DNA of 15,233 nt from Moraxellaceae bacterium (GTDB taxonomy: Bacteria; Pseudomonadota; Gammaproteobacteria; Pseudomonadales; Ketobacteraceae), in the NCBI GenBank assembly GCA_002402125.1, contig NVVG01000002.1:81005-96237 (forward strand). Reading direction: 5' to 3'. The position numbers were made by a program, and so were the translations under genes. Below the pieces are notes generated by a model that was not told where the DNA came from, searched no databases, and saw only the letters and a program-made list of their open reading frames with translations. Positions within the stretch are counted from its first letter, which is position 1, and each line of letters begins with the position of its first letter. Of the stretch, positions 2,377-14,987 are shown one piece after another.

Positions 2377-4068
2377 CTAGGTCTTAAAAAATCCCGCCAT
2401 ACTACGCAGCTCTTCAACTCTGCCATTGATCTGTTCGGCGGTTGCGGCTAATTGTTCCGACGCAGAGGCATTGGATTGTGATGAATGATCAACTGACGTC
2501 ATGGATTGAGCAATCAATATGACACCGTTGGTTTGCTCTTCGGAAGCAATGTTGATTTTTTGCACCAATTCCGCGGTTTTATCCACAGCAGGGACAATTT
2601 CTTCTAGCAATTTCCCCGCGCTTGATGCCGCCTTGGTAGTGATAGTTGCCAAGTCGTCAATCTCTTTTGACGTGGTTTGACAGCGATCTGCCAGCTTGCG
2701 CACCTCTCCGGCAACGACGGCGAAACCTTTGCCCACGTCACCAGCACGGGCCGCTTCGATGGTGGCGTTTAATGCTAATAGATTGGTTTTTCGGGCAATA
2801 TCATCGATGGTATCAATTTTTTTGGTAATGGCGGCAATGGCTGAGATCGTTTTCCTTACCGCCTCACCCCCCTCTCTTGCCTCGGAGGCCGCTTTGCTTG
2901 CCAATTCATCGGTTAGACTGGCACATTCGGCGTTACTGTTAATTGATGCGGTCATTTCTTCTAGAGACGAACTGGTTTTTTCCACACTGATTGCCTGCTC
3001 GCTGGCAGATTGGCTGAGTGAATTTGCAGAGGCTTTAACTTCATTGGATGCGCTCGCCAGTACCTCGATACTCTCACTTATATTAGAAATAACATGATGT
3101 AATTTATCCAGAAAAGTGTTGAGGGCAGTGGCGGTTCTGCCGAGTTCATCGTTGCCAAATTTGGGTAATCGTTGGGTTAGATCTCCCTCTCCAGAACACA
3201 GGTCCTCAACCGCCTTCAACATGGCATTTACTGGGCGAAGAATGGCGCGCCTTAATGCTAGGGTTGAAACAAAACTTATGCCAATGACAACTGCCAACAC
3301 TATCATTGCTACCTGTTGCAATTGAACATTCTCTGCTTTTACCTTAACAGACTCACTTCTAAGATTTTCACTGACATTTTGAACTTTAGCGGATGCTTGT
3401 TCTACCTTGTTGGCGCTGGCAAGGGCTTGCTGTTTTGATTGTTGTAGGACTACGTCGAGTTCTTTTTCTATGTTTAATGCCTGGCTTCTCGCGCTGGCTA
3501 TGATCGAGTTGCCAATTACCCTGTTCTCATCCACGTAGGAATCGACGGCCTCAAACATTTTTTCGTGAAATTCATTGCTTTCCTTGCGCAGATTTTTGGC
3601 GAGCAAAGGTTTGTTGATAGCTAATTTGTCCAATAACAAAAACAACCGTTCTTTGGCGGCTTCCGCCTTGTCTTCGGACTCATTTAACCAGCTAACGGAA
3701 AGGTCAAATAACCAAAATCGTTGATCTGAGAATGCTCTTAAAATATCATTTGCCAATGCTAGTTGTTCGAGTTCACCTTGTTGTGCTTGATTTGAAATAC
3801 GCTGATGTTGAATCATTTCAATCTGATTTTGTGCCAAGGAATTTTGGCCATCAATGACTTTTGTAATGTCGGTAATTGAGAGCACAAGATACACTAAGGA
3901 AAGAGAGGTCACTGTAGCAAGCAATATATTCACCGCGGCAATTTTCTTGGAGAGAGAAATATTTCCAATACTGAAGCGGCCAGGTTCCTTATGTTGAGTT
4001 TTTTCTTTTGCTTGTCGATCGGGATAATCACCGGTAAATATGTTAACCATTTTAGAAAATGCAGTCAT
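2377..4068 (-). CDS. Methyl-accepting chemotaxis protein (transmembrane, HAMP, divergent signalling tip)
   Basis: A 563-residue chemoreceptor. It has a 40-residue hydrophilic N-terminus, TM1 at about 44-66, a helical periplasmic domain of about 185 residues with no family I recognise, TM2 at about 252-273, HAMP at about 275-327, then the long antiparallel signalling coiled coil. The hairpin tip (about 420-465) is clearly MCP-like but differs from the usual sequence: K427 stands where AxQTN normally has Q, T436 replaces Ala in LNAxIEAARAG, and D444 replaces the usual Glu. The protein stops at MAGFFKT with no linker or docking pentapeptide, unlike the two large receptors of the plus-strand operon. 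The start ATG is preceded on its own strand by GGGAGA, 6 bases away. It is transcribed alone, divergent from the che operon and convergent with the kinase. Family assignment is secure; the ligand and the array it joins are unknown. Confidence 0.93.
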   Translation of the reverse strand: MTAFSKMVNIFTGDYPDRQAKEKTQHKEPGRFSIGNISLSKKIAAVNILLATVTSLSLVYLVLSITDITKVIDGQNSLAQNQIEMIQHQRISNQAQQGELEQLALANDILRAFSDQRFWLFDLSVSWLNESEDKAEAAKERLFLLLDKLAINKPLLAKNLRKESNEFHEKMFEAVDSYVDENRVIGNSIIASARSQALNIEKELDVVLQQSKQQALASANKVEQASAKVQNVSENLRSESVKVKAENVQLQQVAMIVLAVVIGISFVSTLALRRAILRPVNAMLKAVEDLCSGEGDLTQRLPKFGNDELGRTATALNTFLDKLHHVISNISESIEVLASASNEVKASANSLSQSASEQAISVEKTSSSLEEMTASINSNAECASLTDELASKAASEAREGGEAVRKTISAIAAITKKIDTIDDIARKTNLLALNATIEAARAGDVGKGFAVVAGEVRKLADRCQTTSKEIDDLATITTKAASSAGKLLEEIVPAVDKTAELVQKINIASEEQTNGVILIAQSMTSVDHSSQSNASASEQLAATAEQINGRVEELRSMAGFFKT

Positions 4069-4453: not shown

Positions 4454-5674
4454 ATGAAAAATGGTGATGATCGAACGTTTTCTAAAGCAATAGATTATAA
4501 AGGGCTCTTTATGTTGCCTCTGGGGCTCGCCTGCTTTGCTCTGTTACTGTTGCTCTACATTGAACTTAGTACCTACACTATCGCAGCTTCAGCGATATTG
4601 ATTACGCTGGCGGTGGTTGGCTCGTTGTGGCTGAAATCAATACTTGCTAACCAAATTACCGAACTTGTTGAAGATACACTGGCGCAGACGGGCCCCGAAG
4701 AGGGGGCGTTGCAAAATAATGCGATTGAAGATACCTGTTTGACGGCGATTCCCATATGGGCAAACCAACTAATTCTGTGCAACGAATTATCTACGTCAGG
4801 GATTGATATACTGGCGGATCGTTTCTCCGGTATTGTGCAACAGATTGCCGAGATAGAAACCATAACCCAAGGTAGTGGCAGTAATCGATCTCAACAAGAG
4901 GCGATGTTGCAATCCCACAGTAAGACCTTAAACGGTATTACCGACACCCTACGCGCAGCGTTAAGCTCGAAAAAGGAAACGGTTACTCAAATTCGACAGT
5001 TAGAAGAGTTTGTTGAGCCGCTTCAGGGCATGGCAGAGAGGGTGGGTTATATCGCGGACCAAACTAACTTACTGGCACTTAATGCAGCGATAGAGGCGGC
5101 CAGGGCGGGGGAGGCAGGTAGAGGGTTTTCGGTGGTGGCGGATGAGGTGAGAAACTTGGCCAATACCTCCGGTGAAATAAGTACCCAAATCCTCGATAAG
5201 GTTGGTTCAATATCTGACATGGTGACCTCCGTGTTAGGTGCCGCCGAGGTTGCAGAGCAGCGTAAAGGTGAATTTCTTGAGAATGCCGATAAAACCATTA
5301 TTAATGTGCTCGATGATTTTCACACGGATTTGACAGCGCTGATGGAGTCGTCTGAAAAACTCATGTCAGTGAATGACGGTATCCGCCATGAGGTTGATGA
5401 GTCGTTGGTGTCATTGCAGTTTCAGGATCGAGTTAGCCAAATATTATTAAACGTCAAAACCAATTTAGAAAATTTTAGTGAACAGCTAGCGTTGTTACAG
5501 GCTAAAAGATCCATGGGTGAAGAGTTGATTGGCACTGAATTGGACGATTGGTTGGATAAAATGAAAGAGGTGTACACCACCGTCGACGAAAAAAACGCCC
5601 ACAACAGAGTGACGGGCGAGAAAGATGCGGAAACATCCAAAGCAGGCGAAGGTGGCGATGTGATGTTTTTTTGA
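4454..5674 (+). CDS. Short HAMP-less chemoreceptor with a CheZ-like DxxxQ segment
   Basis: A 406-residue membrane-anchored MCP-like protein. Two adjacent transmembrane helices (about 17-37 and 41-62) are joined by only a few residues, so there is no periplasmic sensor, and no HAMP domain follows. The signalling tip is canonical ([20 protein letters not shown], about 200-219, then [15 protein letters not shown]). After the descending helix, residues 321-330 read [10 protein letters not shown] and continue as an amphipathic helix to about 350. This resembles the active-site helix of E. coli CheZ, where FQDLTGQV holds the catalytic D143 and Q147; the matching residues here are D325 and Q329. A hydrophilic linker then leads to the acidic-hydrophobic end GGDVMFF, loosely like the CheY-binding tail of CheZ. 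It is the first gene of the operon, 81 bases before cheY, and no cheZ is visible. Receptor-like identity is firm. Phosphatase function is inferred from motif and context. Confidence 0.9.
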
Positions 5675-5755: not shown

Positions 5756-6121
5756 ATGTCAAAAACCATATTAATTGTTGATGATTCAAGTTCTGTTCGT
5801 AGTGTCGTTGGTATTGCATTAAAACGCGCAGGTTATGATGTGATCGAGGGCTGTGATGGCGTGGATGCATTATCAAAAATGACCGGTCAGAAGATTCATC
5901 TCATCGTCAGTGATGTCAATATGCCAAATATGGACGGCATAACCTTTGTAAAAGAAGTAAAAAAGGATCCGCGTTACAAATTCACTCCGGTTTGTATGCT
6001 GACGACCGAAGCCGAAGAATCAAAGATGCTGGAAGGAAAAGCCGCTGGCGCCAAGGCGTGGATTATAAAACCCTTTCAGCCGCCGAAGTTATTGGATGTT
6101 GTTGCGAAGCTGGTGGGTTAA
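5756..6121 (+). CDS. cheY: Single-domain response regulator CheY
   Basis: A 121-residue stand-alone receiver with no output domain. It should be phosphorylated by CheA and relay the signal to the flagellar switch or another target. Key residues are the acidic pair D9/D10, the phosphorylation site D53 in VSDVNMPNMDG, T83 and K105 in IIKPF. These match E. coli D12/D13, D57, T87 and K109 with a constant offset of four. W102 occupies the position of the E. coli switch residue Y106. An in-frame TTG at 5747 could add three residues, but AAGGA at 5741-5745 is almost touching it and lies 10 bases before the ATG at 5756, so the ATG is preferred. It sits between the CheZ-like receptor and the STAS gene. 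Confidence 0.95.
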   Translation: MSKTILIVDDSSSVRSVVGIALKRAGYDVIEGCDGVDALSKMTGQKIHLIVSDVNMPNMDGITFVKEVKKDPRYKFTPVCMLTTEAEESKMLEGKAAGAKAWIIKPFQPPKLLDVVAKLVG

Positions 6122-6162: not shown

Positions 6163-6513
6163 ATGGTCATGGCACTTAATAAAGAATCTGATAGTGATGG
6201 TGGCAGCACGATCGACAGCAATAACGATAAGGGTGACTGTGAATTGACCCTCGCGGAGGAGATGACTATCTATACCATCAGCAACCTCAAACAAGAACTT
6301 TCAAAGAATATGGATAGTTACCAAACCTTGGCGCTCAATCTACAGAACGTGGAAGAGATTGATTCGGCAGGGATTCAACTGTTATTAGCGTTAGATAAAG
6401 AGCTTAGCCAAAAAAACAAATCATTAAAGCTTACTTCGATGAGCGGCGCAGTAAATAAACTTATCGAGAGTTACGGCCTCAGTGATCGTTTTCCCATAGG
6501 AGAAGCCGCATGA
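6163..6513 (+). CDS. STAS-domain protein (anti-sigma-factor-antagonist type) of the che operon
   Basis: A 116-residue small protein with a hydrophilic N-terminus of about 25 residues followed by a STAS fold of the SpoIIAA/RsbV type. The diagnostic segment is VEEIDSAGIQLLLALD (about 63-78), in which S68 aligns with the serine that partner kinases phosphorylate in SpoIIAA-like antagonists. A second ATG at 6169 lies 8 bases after AGGA (6157-6160) and may be the true start. The stop codon overlaps the cheA start as ATGA, which suggests translational coupling. No serine kinase or PP2C phosphatase is in the window. STAS proteins directly before cheA are known in accessory chemosensory operons, but their role there is not one I can state. 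Domain call confident, function open. Confidence 0.85.
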   Translation: MVMALNKESDSDGGSTIDSNNDKGDCELTLAEEMTIYTISNLKQELSKNMDSYQTLALNLQNVEEIDSAGIQLLLALDKELSQKNKSLKLTSMSGAVNKLIESYGLSDRFPIGEAA

Positions 6514-8759
6514 CAGACGACAGCCTGCAAATATTTGCCGAAGAAGCGGAAGACCTTCTCAGTGTCGCTGAGCAGGCGTTACTTAATTTGGATGATATTA
6601 AAAACAAAGCCGAAGCGTTAGATTGTGTTAACGACCTGTTTCGTACTTTTCATACGATTAAAGGAGCCGCTGGATTATTTGGTTTAGATCTCATTGTAAA
6701 CTTTACCCACATAGTCGAGAGCGTACTGGTTAAAGTGCGGGAAGGCACGCTGGAGGTGGATGATGATATGGTCTCCCTATTTCTTGCTAATCGCGACCAC
6801 CTGGAATATTTGGTTAATGATGCTCTTTCTGGCAAAACAGAGATGGATAAAGAACTTAAACAAAGAGATGATTTACTGGTTTCGCAATTAAATTCCTATT
6901 TGGGAGAAACCAGTGACGCAGCTGATACTGATAAAAATCACACGATAATTAGTAGCGACTATATACCCGCCGGCGGGGTAAAAAATAAAAATTGGCATAT
7001 CTCCTTGCGTTTTGGTCCCGATGCCTTACGTAATGGCATGGATCCCTCATCGTTTATTAATTATCTGAGTAATATAGGTGAGATAAAGACAGTCACGCTT
7101 ATTGATGACGCGCTGCCAGCCTGGAAAAATTTTGATCCGGAAACCTGTTATCTGGGATTTGAGATTGTATTGATCGCACCCCAAACCAACAAAGAAACCA
7201 TCGAAGAGGTATTTGAATTTGTGCAGGACGATTGCAAGATCAGCATCTTGCCTCCCCATAGCCACATAGCCGAATATATCCAGCTGATCGAGCAGCTACC
7301 GGAAGAGGATATGCGCATCGGTGATATTCTGCTGGCCTGTGGTGCGCTCACCGAATTGGAACAAGATGATGTGCTGAACGCGCAAGATCGGATTACCGAT
7401 GAGGTCATGGTCGGTGCAACCGACCAACAGGTACCGTTGCTAGGAAGTGTCGCGGTTGATCAACAGGTAGTTCAACAAGAGGTGGTTGATGCCGCCATTA
7501 AAAAGCAGACCGAGGTAAAACAACACCGCACCGATGCTCAGCAGACAATCCGAGTCAATGCCCTTAAATTGGAGAGTTTGGTGAATTTGGTGGGCGAATT
7601 AGTGATTGGATCGGCTAATGCCGAGATGAATGCGCGAAAATTTAGTGATACTGGTTTAAACGAAGCGATGGAAAATCTATTACACCTGATTGAGGAGGTT
7701 CGAGATACCACGTTGGGTCTGCGTATGGTGCAGATCGGTGAAACCTTCAATCGTTATAAGCGGGTGGTACGAGAAGTCAGTCGAGATACCGGTAAAGATA
7801 TTGAACTACATATCAGTGGCGCGGATACTGAACTGGATAAAACCCTCATTGAAAAGATTGTCGACCCACTCATGCATTTGGTGCGAAATGCCATCGATCA
7901 TGGCATAGAGTCGCCAGAGAAAAGATTGAAATTGGGTAAGCCAGCCAAGGGGATTGTGCATCTGGGTGCCTTTCATGAATCCGGCAGTGTGGTGATTCAA
8001 GTCAGCGATGACGGTGGCGGATTAAACAAACAAAAAATTCTCAGCAAAGCTATAGAAAAAGGCCTGGTGCAACAAAATCAGCAGCTCAGCGACAAGCAGA
8101 TCTATCAACTTATTTTTGGCGCTGGTCTATCTACCGCCGATTCAGTCAGCAATATATCCGGTCGTGGTGTGGGTATGGACGTCGTACGCAGCAATATTGA
8201 GTCATTGCGTGGTCACATAGAGATAGAAACCACAGAAGGTAAGGGTAGTACCATTTCAATTCGCTTGCCCCTTACGTTAGCCATTATCGATGGTTTCCAG
8301 GTTCGAGTAGGTGATGCCCAGTATATAGTGCCACTGGATATGGTTGATGAATGTATTGAATTAAACGAGTCACTTCTAGGTAAAGATGACTCGGCAAACT
8401 ACATTAATCTTCGGGGTGAGGTACTGCCCTTTATGCATCTAAGTGATATGTTTGGGGAAGATAGTCAGCGAGAGGGCAAGCACATCGACAATATCGTAGT
8501 GGTGCATTTTGCTGGCAAAAAAGCCGGTTTTGTGGTGGATGAACTGTTAGGTGAACATCAAACGGTCATCAAACCACTAGGAAAAGTCTTTCAGCATCTG
8601 ACAGAAATCAGCGGTACTACCATTCTTGGCAGTGGCGAGGTGGCATTGATACTTGATGTGCCAGAGATTTTAAATCGAGTGACTCAGATAGGTGGGGATC
8701 ATGTTGGTGACGCTCATGTTGGTCGGGCTGATGTTGATGCTTCGGCAGCGGCGCACTGA
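6510..8759 (+). CDS. cheA: Chemotaxis histidine kinase CheA with non-canonical middle domains
   Basis: A 749-residue kinase that should autophosphorylate in receptor/CheW arrays and pass phosphate to CheY (and CheB). Domains in order: P1/HPt (about 1-130) with phospho-acceptor H48 in FRTFHTIKGAAG; an alpha/beta domain at about 160-250 where P2 is expected; a tandem pair of helical repeats at about 266-336, each of the pattern (I/L)G-x-x-x-x-x-x-x-(L/V)...A-x-x-x-Q; the dimerisation helices P3 (about 347-415, with VNLVGELVIG); the ATPase P4 with N-box N460 in LVRNAIDHG, DDGGG at 500-504 and SGRGVGMDVV at 550-559; and the CheW-like P5 (about 590-725). The C-terminus ends in a short repetitive His/Asp/Ala tail. 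All catalytic residues are present. The start overlaps the STAS stop (ATGA). Confidence 0.97.
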   Translation: MTDDSLQIFAEEAEDLLSVAEQALLNLDDIKNKAEALDCVNDLFRTFHTIKGAAGLFGLDLIVNFTHIVESVLVKVREGTLEVDDDMVSLFLANRDHLEYLVNDALSGKTEMDKELKQRDDLLVSQLNSYLGETSDAADTDKNHTIISSDYIPAGGVKNKNWHISLRFGPDALRNGMDPSSFINYLSNIGEIKTVTLIDDALPAWKNFDPETCYLGFEIVLIAPQTNKETIEEVFEFVQDDCKISILPPHSHIAEYIQLIEQLPEEDMRIGDILLACGALTELEQDDVLNAQDRITDEVMVGATDQQVPLLGSVAVDQQVVQQEVVDAAIKKQTEVKQHRTDAQQTIRVNALKLESLVNLVGELVIGSANAEMNARKFSDTGLNEAMENLLHLIEEVRDTTLGLRMVQIGETFNRYKRVVREVSRDTGKDIELHISGADTELDKTLIEKIVDPLMHLVRNAIDHGIESPEKRLKLGKPAKGIVHLGAFHESGSVVIQVSDDGGGLNKQKILSKAIEKGLVQQNQQLSDKQIYQLIFGAGLSTADSVSNISGRGVGMDVVRSNIESLRGHIEIETTEGKGSTISIRLPLTLAIIDGFQVRVGDAQYIVPLDMVDECIELNESLLGKDDSANYINLRGEVLPFMHLSDMFGEDSQREGKHIDNIVVVHFAGKKAGFVVDELLGEHQTVIKPLGKVFQHLTEISGTTILGSGEVALILDVPEILNRVTQIGGDHVGDAHVGRADVDASAAAH
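8700..8744 (+). repeat. Imperfect 15-base tandem repeat at the 3' end of cheA
   Basis: Three units begin at 8700, 8715 and 8730: CATGTTGGTGACGCT, CATGTTGGTCGGGCT and GATGTTGATGCTTCG. The first two differ at only three positions. The period is in frame and encodes the tail (HVGDA)(HVGRA)(DVDAS), beyond the conserved CheW-like domain. It looks like a small slippage-derived extension with no known role. Confidence 0.6.
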
Positions 8760-8789
8760 TTACTAATAAAAGTATTTATGGAGACTGTT

Positions 8790-9314
8790 ATGCAACAACT
8801 ACACGTCGATGTTGAGAGTTATGAGGTTCAATCAAATGAGCCTCAACAATATCTCACCTTTATGCTGGGTGGCAAGATCTACGGTCTAGGTATTCTTAAT
8901 ATAAAAGAAATTATCGAGTATGGCGATATCACTGAGGTTCCGATGACGCCGGAGTTTATTTCCGGAGTGATTAACTTACGTGGCAGTGTGGTGCCAGTTA
9001 TCGATTTGAGCCAACGGTTTTCTGGCAAAACCTTAGAGCGAACCAAGCGTACCAGTATCATTATCCTTGAACTAATGAATGAGGATCTAAAAATTGAGAT
9101 TGGTGTCACCGTCGATATTGTCAATGAGGTACTCGACATTCACCCCAGTGAAATAGAACCGGCGCCATCCTTTGGTGAGAATATTCAAACCCGATTTATT
9201 AGTGGTATGGCTAAGATTTCTGGCAAGTTGCTTATCTTGCTAAATATTGAAAATCTACTGTCGGTGGAAGAACTTACTCAGATTGGCAGTATCCAAAGCT
9301 CTGCGAATGAATAA
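8790..9314 (+). CDS. cheW: CheW coupling protein (copy 1)
   Basis: A 174-residue adaptor that links receptor tips to CheA. The CheW beta-barrel core is recognisable from LTFMLGGKIYGLGILNIKEI through the conserved TPEFISGVINLRGSVVPVID segment to the end, with a short N-terminal lead of about 18 residues. An upstream ATG at 8778 is in frame, but GGAGA at 8780-8784 lies 5 bases before the ATG at 8790 and no Shine-Dalgarno precedes 8778, so 8790 is preferred. It lies 30 bases after cheA. It is clearly paralogous to the second cheW at 12116. The next gene is a carbonic anhydrase rather than the usual receptor. Confidence 0.95.
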   Translation: MQQLHVDVESYEVQSNEPQQYLTFMLGGKIYGLGILNIKEIIEYGDITEVPMTPEFISGVINLRGSVVPVIDLSQRFSGKTLERTKRTSIIILELMNEDLKIEIGVTVDIVNEVLDIHPSEIEPAPSFGENIQTRFISGMAKISGKLLILLNIENLLSVEELTQIGSIQSSANE

Positions 9315-9426: not shown

Positions 9427-10308
9427 ATGCTTAATCGTCCTAAGAGAAACTGGCTGCAGTACAAAGGACCATTTAGAAAAGCTAGCCTATTTTCTATAAT
9501 TGTGGCTGCGGCGATGAGTTTAGCCATTGTGTCTGGCTCAGCGGGCGCTAGTGGTGGCGGTGCCCATTGGAGTTATAGCGGCCACGATGGCCCTCACAAT
9601 TGGGGGGCCTTGGCAAAAGAGTATGGGCTGTGTAGTGCAGGCATTAATCAGTCGCCGATCAATATCAAAACCCCGCTCGACTCCACCTTATTTGAGTTGA
9701 ATTTTAATTATGGTCGAGTGCCGTTGCAGATTGTCAATAATGGCCACACCATTCAAATAAACTACTCCACCATTTCCAAAAATGAGGAATCCATTGTCGA
9801 AATCGACAATAAGAAATATTCCTTGCCAAGTGCCACGACTTATCACAGTACAGTCAGCATCAGTGGTGAAAGGTATAAATTGCTCCAGATACATTTTCAT
9901 AGCCCTAGTGAGCATCACGTGGCAGGTAGCCCTTATTCGATGGAGGCGCATTTTGTTCATGCCAATAGTGCGGGGCAATTAGCCGTGGTGGGTGTGCTAC
10001 TAAAAGAGGGTAGTCACAATAAATTTATTAGCACGCTGTGGAATAACATGCCGCAGGATGCCGATGGCGTACATGTGATTGAGGGGGTGGAGGTTAACGC
10101 TAGCGAGCTGTTGCCGAGGAATAAAGAATACTACCACTATCGTGGTTCACTAACTACGCCACCATGCAGTGAAGGCGTACGCTGGTTTGTGATGCGCACC
10201 CCGCAAGAAGTATCATCGTCACAAATCGCGCTGTTTTTGTCGATTATTCGAGAAAATGCTCGGCCTATACAAGGCGTTAACTCTCGATTTTTACTAAAGA
10301 GCAAGTGA
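9427..10308 (+). CDS. cah: Periplasmic alpha-class carbonic anhydrase
   Basis: A 293-residue zinc enzyme that interconverts CO2 and bicarbonate plus a proton. The N-terminus is a long signal peptide: a basic region of about 20 residues, a hydrophobic core (about 21-36) and a likely signal-peptidase site near SGSAGA (about 41), so the mature enzyme should be periplasmic. Alpha-CA hallmarks are the zinc ligands H156 and H158 ([10 protein letters not shown]) and H175 (MEAHFVH), the proton-shuttle histidine H107 in NNGH, E162, and T243/T244 in SLTTPPC. C69 and C247 are placed for the disulphide typical of bacterial alpha-CAs. The catalytic set is complete, so the enzyme should be active. It sits between cheW and a chemoreceptor, same strand, 40 bases before the receptor start, so co-transcription is likely. 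This location is unusual; no insertion-sequence remnants or flanking repeats were seen. Confidence 0.96.
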
Positions 10309-10348
10309 CCGCTCGCCAGTAGATTCAACAATTTTGAGGAATAGAAAA

Positions 10349-12100
10349 ATGAACATTAACCAGCCATATGAAATGAGCGTAAAACTGAAACTTGGTTTGC
10401 TTACCGGGTTTTTTATGACCGTAATTTTGGGTACCAGCATGGTGACTTGGAGTAACCTGTCGAGTTTAGGCAGTGAGCTAGAAGCGATTACCGAACAAGA
10501 TATTCCTTTAAGCGAAGCCATGGTGCAGATTACCACTCATCAACTTGAGCAGGCGATTTACTTTGAACGAGCGTTGCGCACAGGTGAAGAAATGGTAGCT
10601 AGTCAGGTCGAGGAGGCACACTTTAAACACGCAGTGCATGAGTTTGAGAAATTGACACATCAGGTGGATAAGGAGCTACATGAGGCAGGTATATTGGTCG
10701 CAGATGCCATTGTTAACGCACATTCTCTGCTTGATGAGGCAGAATTTAAACATGTTGAAGAGATTATTAAGGATGTAGAAATAAAACATGCAGTCTATGA
10801 GAAAGAGGTGTTGCAGGTGTTTGCGATGCTGGCACAAGGTAATGTTCATGGGGCCCATGAACAGGTACAAACCATTGAAGAGCACGAAGATGAGCTGGAT
10901 AATGAACTAAAAGATATCATTGCTGAAATTGGGCAGTTTACCCAGGCGTCATCAATCAAGGCCGTTGAGCATGAGAAGGGAGCGGTAGTTTTTTTGCTGG
11001 TGATGGCGGTTGTCTCATTTGCTTTGGGTGCCATCGCATCGGTATGGATTATCCGCAGTATGTTGCGTCAATTAGGTACTGAAGCGGTAGAGGTACGCCA
11101 GTTAGCCGAGCGTATTGCACAAGGTGATTTAACCCTCGACATTAGCACGGTAGATAGTCGTAAGAAGGTGGGTATTTATGGATCGATGATTGCTATGCAA
11201 GAGAGGATGGTGGAGGTGGTACGGCAAATTCAGTTTAATTCCAGCCAGATAACGGCCGCGGCGGCTGAAGTGAGTGGTACCGCAGGTTCCTTGAGTCAGG
11301 CAGCCAGTGAACAGGCGGCTAGTGTCGAAGAGGTCAGTGCTTCGGTAGAACAAATGGGAGCCTCCATTAGTCAAAATAGCGAAAATGCTCAGACCACAGA
11401 AGATGTTGCCAGTCAATCGGCTGCCTCGGCGGCGGAAGGTGGCGAGGCGGTGAATGGCACCGTGAAGGCAATGAAAGATATTGCCGAGAAAATTTCCATT
11501 GTGGAGGAAATTGCTTACCAAACTAACATGTTGGCACTGAACGCTGCCATCGAAGCGGCACGGGCGGGTGAGCATGGCAAAGGTTTTGCCGTGGTGGCTG
11601 CAGAAGTGAGAAAACTTGCCGAGCGTAGCCAACTGGCGGCGTCAGAAATTAGCACCCTCGCCGGTGATAGTGTCAAAGTGGCGGAAAAAGCTGGCTCATT
11701 ACTGCAAGTTATGGTCCCCGATATTACCCGTACCGCAGAATTGGTACAGGAGATCAGTGCCGCGTCAGAAGAACAGTCCAGTGGTGTAGGGCAAATAAAT
11801 AGCGCCATGCAACAACTTGATAAGGTGACTCAGCAAAATGCCGCTGGTTCTGAGCAGCTTGCCGCTACGGCAGAAACAATGCAAACCCAAGCGGCAAACA
11901 TGCAGAGAGTAGTGGCGTTTTTCCAATTATCAAAAGTTGCCGCTGATATGGATGCTTACGGTTCGGCGGTGTTACCTAGTGCTGAGAGTCAGGCGGTTGG
12001 TGCAGCGGGTGCAATGGGCTCTGGCGCAGAAGGCAATGTTGGTAGTGTTAGCAATAAAGAGGGTTCAGAAGTGGATAGCTCGAAATTCGGACGTTTCTAA
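10349..12100 (+). CDS. Methyl-accepting chemotaxis protein with histidine-rich periplasmic sensor and docking tail
   Basis: A 583-residue receptor: TM1 at about 14-33, an all-helical periplasmic domain at about 34-210 (four-helix-bundle-like by pattern), TM2 at about 211-234, HAMP at about 235-290 and the signalling coiled coil with tip [20 protein letters not shown] (387-406). The periplasmic region has 13 histidines (64, 91, 94, 97, 104, 111, 125, 135, 147, 167, 170, 179, 208), many beside Glu or Asp, suggesting metal or pH sensing. A flexible Ala/Gly/Ser linker from about 531 leads to the final pentapeptide KFGRF, which fits the aromatic-x-x-aromatic CheR/CheB-docking pattern. The start ATG follows GAGGA (10336-10340) by 8 bases; an in-frame TTG at 10334 overlaps that site and is rejected. 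It follows the carbonic anhydrase directly. The signalling half is nearly identical in protein sequence to the receptor at 12759. Ligand unknown. Confidence 0.95.
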
Positions 12101-12115
12101 GCGGAGGAATGGGAG

Positions 12116-12673
12116 ATGCAGGATCAGACTAAGCAGCAAAAAAGGCAGCAGTCACAACAACAGCCATCAGGAAAAAACGAAAAGGGAGAATTGGTCAGCG
12201 AAGCTGTCGCAGAGCATGTTGCGCAGGTGCTCACCTTTGGCTTGAACAAGGAAGTCTACGGCTTAAATATTCTCAATATCAAAGAAATCATTGGTCACGG
12301 CCATATCACCCGAGTGCCAATGATGCCTGAGTTTATTGCCGGGGTGATTAATCTACGGGGCAATGTGGTGCCGGTGGTAGACCTAGCGTTACGTTTTTCT
12401 GAGAAACCATCACCAAGAACCAAGCGTAGTAGCATTGTCATCTTAGAAATTGAGTGTGATGAGCAAACCATTGAGATTGGCATTACTGTCGATGCGGTGG
12501 ATGAAGTGTTGGATATACCCACCGATGAAATTAAGCTGCCGCCTTCATTTGGTACTAAAATTCGTGCCGACTTTATTAGCGGTATGGTAAAAGCCGGTGA
12601 TAATTTGTTAGTGCTGCTGGAGATCGAGAATATATTATCGATTGCAGAATTATCGAGAGTGAGCGGTGAATGA
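12116..12673 (+). CDS. cheW: CheW coupling protein (copy 2)
   Basis: A 185-residue CheW with the same core as copy 1: LTFGLNKEVYGLNILNIKEI, then MPEFIAGVINLRGNVVPVVD. Unlike copy 1 it has a hydrophilic Gln/Lys-rich N-terminal extension of about 35 residues before the beta-barrel, probably disordered. GGAGG at 12103-12107 lies 8 bases before the ATG, and the gene follows the upstream receptor by 15 bases, so the two are surely co-transcribed. Two CheW proteins in one cluster may bias assembly with different receptors, or may simply be redundant. The similarity to copy 1 points to duplication. Confidence 0.95.
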   Translation: MQDQTKQQKRQQSQQQPSGKNEKGELVSEAVAEHVAQVLTFGLNKEVYGLNILNIKEIIGHGHITRVPMMPEFIAGVINLRGNVVPVVDLALRFSEKPSPRTKRSSIVILEIECDEQTIEIGITVDAVDEVLDIPTDEIKLPPSFGTKIRADFISGMVKAGDNLLVLLEIENILSIAELSRVSGE

Positions 12674-12758: not shown

Positions 12759-14987
12759 ATGATTAAGAATTTACAGATGCGATGGTTACTCGTTATTGTG
12801 ATGCTTTTCTCTGGCTTGGTACCCTTGGTTGTTACCGGGCTCTATATGTTGAATGGCGCCCAAGAGGCTTTAAGAAACAAAGGTTTTGATCAATTGAAAT
12901 CCCTAAAAACTGCAAAAAAATCCGAGATTGAGCGCTATTTTCAGCAAATAGAAAATCAGATTGTCACTCTTTCGGAAGATCAAAAGACCATTGAGATGAT
13001 GCGTGAGGCCAAGAGTTCCTTCCATGCTTTAGCCAGTGATCTAAACATTGATAAGGCAACGCTTGCAGAATATCGCAATGACGTACGGCGTTTCTACAAT
13101 AGTCAATTTGGTACAAAATTTACTAAAGAAACAGGAGAGCCTATCTTGTCGGATCAACTATTGCCGGTGTCTGATTCGAGCATCATTGCCCAGTATCAGT
13201 ATATTTCGCACAACTATAATCCGCTGGGTAGTAAATCATTGCTAAGTGACAATGAGGACGGTTCTAATTATGCGCGGATGCACGCCAAGTACCACCCGGT
13301 TATGCGCAGCTACCAGGAGAAATTTGGTTATTATGATGTCTTTCTGGTTGACCATCAGACCGGTGACATTGTCTATTCAGTTTTTAAGGAGATTGACTAT
13401 GCCACTAGCCTCTATTCGGATGCCCATAGAGATTCAGGCATTGCCGCAGTCGTGAGAAAAGCGGCCACTTCACGATCTAAGGATGAGACTTTTGTCGATG
13501 ATTTTAGGGTTTACGTGCCCTCCTATAATGCCGCTGCATCGTTTATCGCTTCGCCGATCTTAGATGAGGGCAAGATGTTAGGCATCTTGGTTTTCCAAAT
13601 GCCGGTTGATGAGATCAACAGTCGTCTATTGGTCAAAGAAGGCCTCGGTGAATCAGGCGAAGTCTATTTGGTGGGAGCTGATAGGCTGATGCGCTCACAG
13701 TCGCGCTTCTCTACAGAAAGCACCATATTGGTTAAGAAGGTTGATACCGCTACGGTTAATGCCGCTTTTGCTGGCAATGAAGGTGCTGATATTACGCCAG
13801 ATTATCGAGATGTTAGTGTGCTATCGGCCTATGCGCCACTTAAGTTAAAGGGCTTTGACTGGGTTATTCTGGCGGAAATTAATGAAGAGGAAGCATTTCG
13901 AAGTATCGCCGAGCTTGAATTTGCCATCATGATTGCATTGGTTATCGCAGCAACGCTAATTGTTGCGATTGCTGGATGGTTTGTTCGCCATGTGATGGGA
14001 CAGCTAGGTGCAGATCCGCGGGAAGTGCGGGTGCTGGCCGAATCTATTGCTGCGGGTGATTTTACCATGGACTTGAGTGAAATTGATCAGTATAAGCGGG
14101 TAGGAGTCTATGCGGCGATGATCAGTATGCAGGAAAAACTCATTGAGGTGGTGCAACAAATTAAAGGCAGTTCAGACCAGATCTATTCGGCAGCGGCTCA
14201 GGTGAGTGATACCGCGGGCACCCTGAGTCAGGCCGCCAGTGAGCAAGCCGCTAGTGTTGAGGAAACCAGTGCATCTGTCGAGCAAATGGGAGCATCGATC
14301 AGTCAGAACAGCGAGAATGCCCAGACCACTGATAACATTGCTAGTGAGTCTGCCACTGCCGCGGCTGAGGGCGGAGAAGCCGTTGCGGAGACCGTTGAGG
14401 CGATGGTGCAGATTGCCGAGAAGATTTCAATTATTGAGGAAATAGCATACCAAACAAATATGTTAGCGCTTAATGCGGCAATTGAAGCGGCTCGCGCAGG
14501 AGAGCACGGCAAAGGCTTTGCGGTGGTTGCTGCGGAAGTAAGAAAACTTGCTGAACGCAGTCAGATAGCCGCTGCGGAAATCAGTGACCTTACCAGTGAC
14601 AGTGTAAAAGTTGCGGAGAAAGCTGGTAGCTTGCTGGAGAAAATGGTGCCTGATATTACCAAGACTGCAGAACTGGTACAGGAGATCAGTGCTGCTTCTG
14701 AGGAGCAATCGAGTGGCGTCGGTCAGATCAATAGCGCAATGCAGCAGCTTGATAAAGTGACTCAGCAAAACGCCGCCGGTGCTGAACAACTCGCGGCCAC
14801 TGCTGAGGAGATGCAGTCACAGTCGAAAAATTTGCAACAGGTGGTAGGTTTTTTTCGTTTGGCTGTGGGTACTGATATGGCGAGTTTCGAGGTGTCGTCG
14901 CCTTCGAGTACATTGCCTGTAGACAAGTCACATTCGAATACTAAGATAGCGGTAACCGTTGATGAGTCGAAGTTTGAGCGATTTTGA
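12759..14987 (+). CDS. Methyl-accepting chemotaxis protein with large Cache-type periplasmic sensor and docking tail
   Basis: A 742-residue receptor: TM1 at about 8-30, a periplasmic domain of about 355 residues, TM2 at about 388-410, HAMP at about 411-465 and a signalling coiled coil with tip [20 protein letters not shown] (561-580). The sensor begins with a long helix ([18 protein letters not shown], 57-74) and contains [20 protein letters not shown] (191-210), [12 protein letters not shown] (245-256) and [18 protein letters not shown] (265-282), the pattern of a double-Cache domain; its ligand cannot be read from sequence. After the coiled coil a linker of about 37 residues leads to the final pentapeptide KFERF, a CheR/CheB-docking-type end. 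The ATG follows GGAG (12747-12750) by 8 bases. It lies 85 bases after cheW copy 2 and 102 bases before cheR. The HAMP and signalling halves match the receptor at 10349 closely in protein sequence but differ at many synonymous sites, so the duplication is not recent. Confidence 0.95.

Follow-up and report, generated by a model that had tools for sequence, protein, structure and literature searches.

The mcpZ gene and its chemotaxis cluster

The window, meaning the whole 15,233-nucleotide stretch of DNA analyzed here, carries at 4454..5674 a gene for a 406-residue chemoreceptor with a CheZ-like C-terminal module, delineated from sequence, Pfam matches and an AlphaFold2 model and given the working name mcpZ; this gene and all features below are on the forward strand unless stated otherwise. 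The protein is identified as a chemoreceptor by Pfam MCPsignal (PF00015, E 2e-25) over a signaling hairpin at residues 174-281 (4973..5296) with a conserved signaling tip, most residues of which are invariant in the alignments. Toward the N-terminus, two hydrophobic helices (residues 15-35 and 40-60; 4496..4633) separated by a four-residue turn form a putative membrane anchor without a periplasmic domain, with AlphaFold2 helices at 15-35 and 40-77. They are followed, at residues 96-126 of the N-terminal helix (4739..4831), by a conserved patch in which L120 and F124 are more than 90% conserved in 31 aligned rows; counting back from the hairpin turn, not using coordinates, we infer that this patch faces the FQD motif. 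That CheZ-like active-site motif occupies residues 320-330 (5411..5443) and aligns in register with FQDLTGQ of CheZ; residues 321-330 are encoded by 5414-5443, and the codons of D325 and Q329 lie at 5426-5428 and 5438-5440. A second conserved element of the module, YTTVDEK (residues 374-380; 5573..5593), has the family consensus YTTxEQR or YTMxxER and is common to the stand-alone proteins described below. After a low-confidence linker, the protein ends in an acidic-hydrophobic tail, DVMFF (5657..5671), with an invariant final F406; we propose that this tail is a CheY-binding peptide.

Pfam and NCBIfam scans of the protein returned MCP families and noise and nothing else. Neither a HAMP nor a periplasmic domain was among the Pfam matches, in agreement with an earlier reading of the DNA alone (the sequence-only reading); the D-x-x-x-Q spacing of D325 and Q329 and the C-terminal DVMFF that it had pointed out were confirmed in sequence and coordinates. 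The AlphaFold2 model (31 sequences; mean pLDDT 81.6, pTM 0.47) contains a helix at 144-320, a one-residue break at 321 and a helix at 322-353, with pLDDT of 90-93 in the ten-residue blocks between 311 and 340 and a disordered C-terminal end (pLDDT <50 for residues 393-406). The predicted hairpin, modeled as a monomer, puts the CheZ-like motif on the returning helix. Fold comparison of two monomer models by VIA-align retrieved receptors and generic helical bundles, and CheZ was absent among the 50 rows listed for each, an absence that rules nothing out.

The next gene, 81 nt past the mcpZ stop, is cheY (5756..6121, ATG at 5756), which encodes a single receiver domain (Response_reg, 3e-25) with D53 at 5912-5914 and is the proposed substrate of the module. 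It is followed by a STAS-domain protein of the anti-sigma-factor-antagonist type (6163..6513; STAS_2, 3e-14) and, by Pfam, cheA (6510..8759), cheW (8778..9314), a chemoreceptor without the motif (10334..12100), a second cheW (12116..12673) and a Cache-type chemoreceptor, also without the motif (12759..14987; dCache_1 just under the cut-off). A carbonic-anhydrase-like ORF, named by eye, sits inside the cluster between cheW and a receptor (9427-10308), and a divergently oriented MCP-like ORF, also named by eye, lies upstream of the cluster on the reverse strand (2377-4068). Beyond the window, behind the Cache-type receptor, are cheR, cheD and cheB (L082 28-672, 675-1217 and 1246-2313, named by eye). 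No look-alike of cheZ, cheC or cheX was found among the eight window ORFs by Pfam or the flanking ORFs by eye, which bears out what the sequence-only reading had said of the cluster. Rfam gave no match in the window at gathering thresholds, and nothing in a promoter and terminator scan of the window exceeded shuffles.

Conservation, gene neighborhood and relatives of the module

A search seeded with residues 280-406 yielded 12 proteins, among which one shared 98% identity with the mcpZ protein; residues 321-330 were invariant in 12/12 rows (11 found proteins plus the window). With eight genome loci added (20 rows), the only invariant residues outside the tip region were Q322, F323, Q324, D325, Q329 and F406 (20/20), and all of these except Q324 remained invariant in 31 diverse rows (31/31), where identity to the window over the whole alignment was 22-34% (15-35% in another alignment). 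The largest set for the C-terminal part comprised 46 rows, window included: 18 from alignment A5 and 28 from a class-wide genome sample, the latter selected for carrying the motif and the tail pattern, with a single row from each of 28 loci and none lost. Q322, F323, D325, Q329 and F406 were identical in 46/46 of these rows, Q324 in 45 and Y374 in 44; conservation of D325 and Q329 among orthologues, which the sequence-only reading had named as a check, thus held throughout. The architecture belongs to a large receptor class and is not peculiar to the window. A profile search scored 7993 of 7995 candidate proteins at E <=1e-10, the motif not necessarily being present in all; FQDxxxQ occurred in 131/131 of the homologues listed, and in 130 of them F323 lay 114 residues behind the point where the hairpin motif starts. 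These rows and homologues were found by profiles that themselves contain the motif. In three homologues (P0002-P0004) the motif is kept, the receptor tip reads QIKLL instead of QTNLL and about nine residues extend past the tail.

Across all genome loci examined, 57 distinct family receptors had QF.D...Q 100-130 residues behind the hairpin motif, at +114 in 55 and at +116 in two. Among 117 distinct receptor ORFs (ORFs of <150 aa, without a stop or with <125 residues behind the hairpin were left out), D and Q stood at the fixed positions in 30, namely 26 family members and four motif-less receptors with a chance D...Q at the same spot and no preceding QF; beyond those 30, two more family members carried the motif two residues off.

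Linkage to cheY was scored as a cheY-like receiver on the same strand with its domain starting within 450 nt, for receptors with or without the pattern QF.D...Q, duplicates being left out. A same-strand cheY was found behind 47/57 family receptors, comprising 42/42 of the FQDR type present in the window and 5/15 of the others, and behind 0/93 receptors without the motif, four of 97 having been set aside for want of 450 nt of room. The ten family receptors without cheY behind them were those of L008, L009, L077, L104, L116, L125, L131, L132, L139 and L173; in L151, the locus stops within cheY. The class-wide sample comprised 370 genomes, of which 47 matched at 1e-10, in 53 places, and of the 30 loci examined from these places (two already known) 29 had cheY next, the exception (L112) being the same gene as L104. 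Neither set is random among receptors, the first having been drawn by similarity to the family and the class-sample loci being the best-scoring. The order mcpZ-cheY-STAS-cheA recurs in L001-L006, including two Pseudomonas loci, a Sterolibacterium MAG and the actinomycete Dactylosporangium; no STAS gene was found between cheY and cheA in L007 and L021. The Dactylosporangium roseum cluster (L006) reads cheW-cheR-cheD-cheB-mcpZ-cheY-STAS-cheA and might reflect horizontal transfer.

A second subfamily has LQFxDxxxQ at +114 and a tail ending in ELF or DLF, and occurs in receptors of Vibrio, Shewanella, Alteromonas, Stenotrophomonas and others. Both V. aestuarianus and V. metoecus have such a receptor behind cheB and in front of a STAS gene and a receiver-PP2C gene; in the V. 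metoecus sequence examined, the latter is split over two frames (L131 2153-3326). A genome of the genus Pseudomonas has the receptor, STAS and a receiver gene ahead of cheY-cheA. The receptor, STAS and a receiver are also found in S. decolorationis, where the locus ends and the neighborhood was seen in part, and in Alteromonas marina two second-subfamily receptors are followed by cheY instead. The source genome of the window has a paralogue of this kind (L125, contig C174; L127 8427-9668); it carries LQFGDVTGQ and DVDLF, and STAS and receiver-PP2C genes come behind it.

For McpA-like receptors of F7 systems, the published stage 1 and stage 2 gene orders are cheB-mcpA-STAS-serine phosphatase, or the last three before cheY-cheA (PMC7184735). 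By gene order, the second-subfamily receptors of the Vibrio and Pseudomonas-genus F7 clusters are McpA-like receptors; mcpZ does not have this order, being followed by cheY-STAS-cheA. Stage 1 and 2 F7 systems are described as having cheY but no cheZ in the cluster, nearly all with an McpA-like receptor, for whose conserved C-terminus no clear role was given (PMC7184735). In S. oneidensis and P. aeruginosa, McpA-like receptors are reported to cluster with the F6 arrays and not with the F7 ones (PMC9855816, PMC7534058, PMC7184735), and overproduction of S. oneidensis McpA raised swimming, as did that of three other receptors (PMC9855816).

The module also exists outside receptors. Proteins of about 200 residues without the receptor hairpin carry QFYDRxxQ, YTMExER and a tail of the D-D-I-E-LF type, and relatives of these numbered 637 among 728 candidates. 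Among the 120 listed, the names given were 'hypothetical protein'; QF.D...Q was present in 120/120 and an F-ending acidic-hydrophobic tail in 119. The stand-alone profile matched the mcpZ C-terminal module (E 2.9e-15, probability 98.5%) and did not match CheZ (probability 0.3%). By these sequence comparisons, the C-terminal module of mcpZ is a mobile homologous unit that also exists alone, and the stand-alone proteins are candidate free CheY-type phosphatases. Of five stand-alone loci (L115, L117, L118, L119/L126 and L123), only L123 precedes cheY and cheA; the stand-alone protein of the source genome (L119 1270-1869, contig C245) has no chemotaxis context. Two proteins of about 430 residues (L122 1444-2685 and L124 505-1782) lack the receptor hairpin, contain two stretches of the QFxD type and end in ELF or DLF; no Pfam family scored above cut-off in them. 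NCBIfam gave no name to one stand-alone relative or to one two-module relative.

Resemblance to CheZ and candidate signal-termination genes of the source genome

In the same order, most CheZ proteins have the sequence A-Q-x-[FY]-Q-D-L-T-G-Q and a C-terminus of DDLLSSLGF or something close to it. In the mcpZ family, as in these proteins (FQDLTGQ or YQDLTGQ), DxxxQ is preceded by F/Y-Q. DxxxQ has been described as the two-residue phosphatase signature of CheZ and NarX (PMC3510030), and the mcpZ motif agrees with the published CheZ consensus of AXXF(Y)Q beside DXXXQ, but with S for A (PMC7750401).

The Pfam CheZ family (PF04344) did not match the mcpZ protein. Sub-threshold matches were obtained for two family members (1.8e-4 and 4.3e-4) and for the source-genome paralogue (0.015); these count for little, because the motif-less receptor L105 reached 7.6e-4 in the same search, below the cut-off and over another part of the profile. 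Profile-profile alignment by hhalign placed the motif gap-free on the CheZ motif at full length (P 0.0016, probability 16%), with 18 rows (P 2.2e-4, 45%) and with eight rows of the second subfamily (P 8e-4, 25%), and was likewise gap-free with 46 rows (P 7.5e-5, 62%) and 54 rows (P 9.1e-5, 59%). In local mode, the 18- and 8-row alignments scored 31.1 and 28.2 against 24.2 and 23.5 for the best shuffles; 0/100 heptad-preserving shuffles reached the score of either alignment, and six groups of motif-less receptors scored 11.1-20.2, below the family. When the nine motif columns were masked, in global mode only and with 59 scored shuffles per alignment, the CheZ score fell into the shuffle range (from 19.7 to 8.3 for A5 and from 19.6 to 12.7 for A6). 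Since the signal rests on the motif columns, common descent with CheZ does not follow from it. As judged from these profiles, the resemblance to CheZ is real and local, and fits homology and convergence alike. The sequence-only reading had taken this segment for a CheZ-like phosphatase that profile comparison should recognize: Pfam CheZ was silent, while conservation of the motif and an hhalign signal above shuffles and motif-less controls, in the right register, speak for it.

No separate CheZ was detected in the source genome, whose assembly is 87% complete. In related bacteria, cheY-cheZ lies behind fliA, and the fliA look-alike of the source genome is cut at the edge of contig C117. Because of the incompleteness and of this break, the statement that the genome has no cheZ was dropped; the search for a separate cheZ suggested by the sequence-only reading gave none in this incomplete assembly. 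FliM is present, and the cheA of the window is the only match found in the assembly to the CheA dimerization domain (PF02895). Two CheC/CheX-like ORFs with E-x-x-N stretches recognized by eye lie directly behind a receiver-domain gene (L108 1303-2606, contig C30), and the first of them exceeds the CheX cut-off. CheZ was found in 18/37 genomes of the same order and co-occurs with a family receptor in G004, G029, G032 and G035. The idea that the mcpZ family replaces CheZ was dropped on account of such genomes; since receptor and CheZ can share a genome, the receptor would be tied to one particular system rather than to the genome as a whole.

A possible receptor-phosphatase compared with known systems

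We consider it likely, on the strength of sequence comparisons, that the mcpZ protein is an array-embedded phosphatase of CheY-P, so that the receptor itself probably ends the CheY signal. The observations that speak for this are the sequence itself, the strict conservation and fixed position of the motif, the separate homologous module, the cheY neighborhood and the profile resemblance to CheZ, along with the F7 clusters that have an McpA-like receptor and no cheZ. Counting against it are the silent Pfam CheZ family, the weak CheZ matches equaled by L105, the loss of the hhalign signal on masking, the stand-alone profile that does not match CheZ, the ten family receptors without cheY, the fold comparison, the chance D...Q of four motif-less receptors, the LF ends of L043 and L064, the CheR3 proposal for Mlp44, the clustering of McpA-like receptors with F6 arrays, the swimming effect shared by McpA and three other receptors, and the CheC/CheX-like proteins of the source genome. 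Receptor tips are dimers of helical hairpins. CheZ is described as a hairpin that dimerizes into a four-helix bundle (PMC7750401). With both being hairpin dimers, the base of a receptor can present a CheZ-like face without a new fold. The mcpZ tip would join the CheA/CheW array as any chemoreceptor does, and the CheZ-type active site would lie on the returning helix at the membrane-proximal base, the usual place of HAMP, within a presumed dimeric four-helix bundle. The acidic-hydrophobic tail, held on a flexible linker, may capture CheY-P made by the neighboring CheA and deliver it to the bundle, where D325 would orient the receiver and Q329 would position the attacking water at phospho-D53, as do D143 and Q147 of CheZ (E. 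coli numbering). Production and termination of the signal would thereby take place in one array.

Three other readings were weighed. The best of them, though improbable, is that the module docks CheY without catalysis, holding CheY or CheY-P at the array as a scaffold or sink, with D and Q as contacts: cheY linkage and tail conservation need binding alone, and D and Q of CheZ also contact CheY, but binding leaves unexplained an invariant DxxxQ pair preceded by F-Q in the register of CheZ. Somewhat less probable still is that the target of the module is a different receiver or the STAS/PP2C branch; several second-subfamily forms, including the paralogue in the source genome, precede STAS and receiver-PP2C genes instead of cheY, but cheY stands behind the FQDR type of the window in every one of the 42 cases. 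Least probable of all is an ordinary receptor whose C-terminus is a CheR/CheB tether and whose QF-D-Q is a feature of coiled-coil packing. Packing would not fix a polar D and Q, and stand-alone proteins that have no receptor hairpin bear the same motif and a similar tail. In favor of the tether reading, the tail ends in F as tether pentapeptides do, and the receptors of L043 and L064 have an LF end without the motif. In a review on V. cholerae, Mlp44 is placed in System III on the basis of unpublished methylation data, and its tail, E-W/V-E-X-F, is interpreted as a possible CheR3 site (PMC11940527). Against this, none of 40 McpA-like tails was reported to fit the CheR tether motif, and P. aeruginosa McpA to bind none of four CheRs (PMC7184735). 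Given this misfit, the lack of CheR binding and the sharing of the tail by non-receptors, it is improbable that the tail serves purely as a CheR tether.

Extending the receptor-phosphatase reading from mcpZ to a whole class of orphan receptors, we rate at about even the chance that cheY-linked and McpA-like F7 forms alike are array-embedded CheY-P phosphatases and not inputs, possibly gated by their own signaling state, with a C-terminal unit that is a mobile phosphatase module, also occurring alone, and may share its origin with CheZ. We found no description of this receptor architecture as a phosphatase in the open-access literature searched. In chemotaxis, signal input and termination are ascribed to separate proteins, and here one chain seems to hold both, so that a single array would tie kinase and phosphatase together.

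Among known systems, CheZ (PF04344; 1KMI) shares with mcpZ a helix bearing F/Y-Q-D-x-x-x-Q and, beyond it, a linker and an acidic-hydrophobic peptide at the C-terminus. It differs in lacking the receptor hairpin with its signaling tip, the membrane anchor and the second motif YTTxEQR, and in its tail (DDLLSSLGF, against D-h-x-FF in mcpZ). CheX and CheC attack CheY-P by means of an acidic and an amide residue, which in CheX form ExxN (PMC3510030); their motif is another one and they are not receptors. CheT of Sinorhizobium meliloti, which we liken to mcpZ by description alone, is reported to be a CheY phosphatase that carries DXXXQ and is predicted to resemble CheZ in structure (PMC12654446); unlike mcpZ, it is a separate protein and not a receptor. 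As regards Pseudomonas chemosensory cluster II (F8), the 120 best profile matches include proteins of P. syringae and P. viridiflava, and the Pseudomonas loci L001 and L003 share the window order mcpZ-cheY-STAS-cheA; we infer that the window cluster belongs to F8. The accessible text of a P. syringae cluster II paper mentions CheZ once, in general terms (PMC11253619). Finally, the McpA-like F7 receptors (CttP/PA0180, VCA1088/Mlp44 and SO_2117), compared by way of the receptors of V. metoecus, V. aestuarianus and S. decolorationis and not of PA0180, VCA1088 and SO_2117 themselves, resemble mcpZ in architecture, in the position of LQFxDxxxQ and in a D/E-V/I-E-LF tail. They differ in having STAS and receiver/PP2C genes behind them instead of cheY, and no YTTxEQR (A6 rows); the papers examined assign them no phosphatase role. 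If the proposal is true, it would answer what McpA-like receptors do in F7 systems without cheZ.
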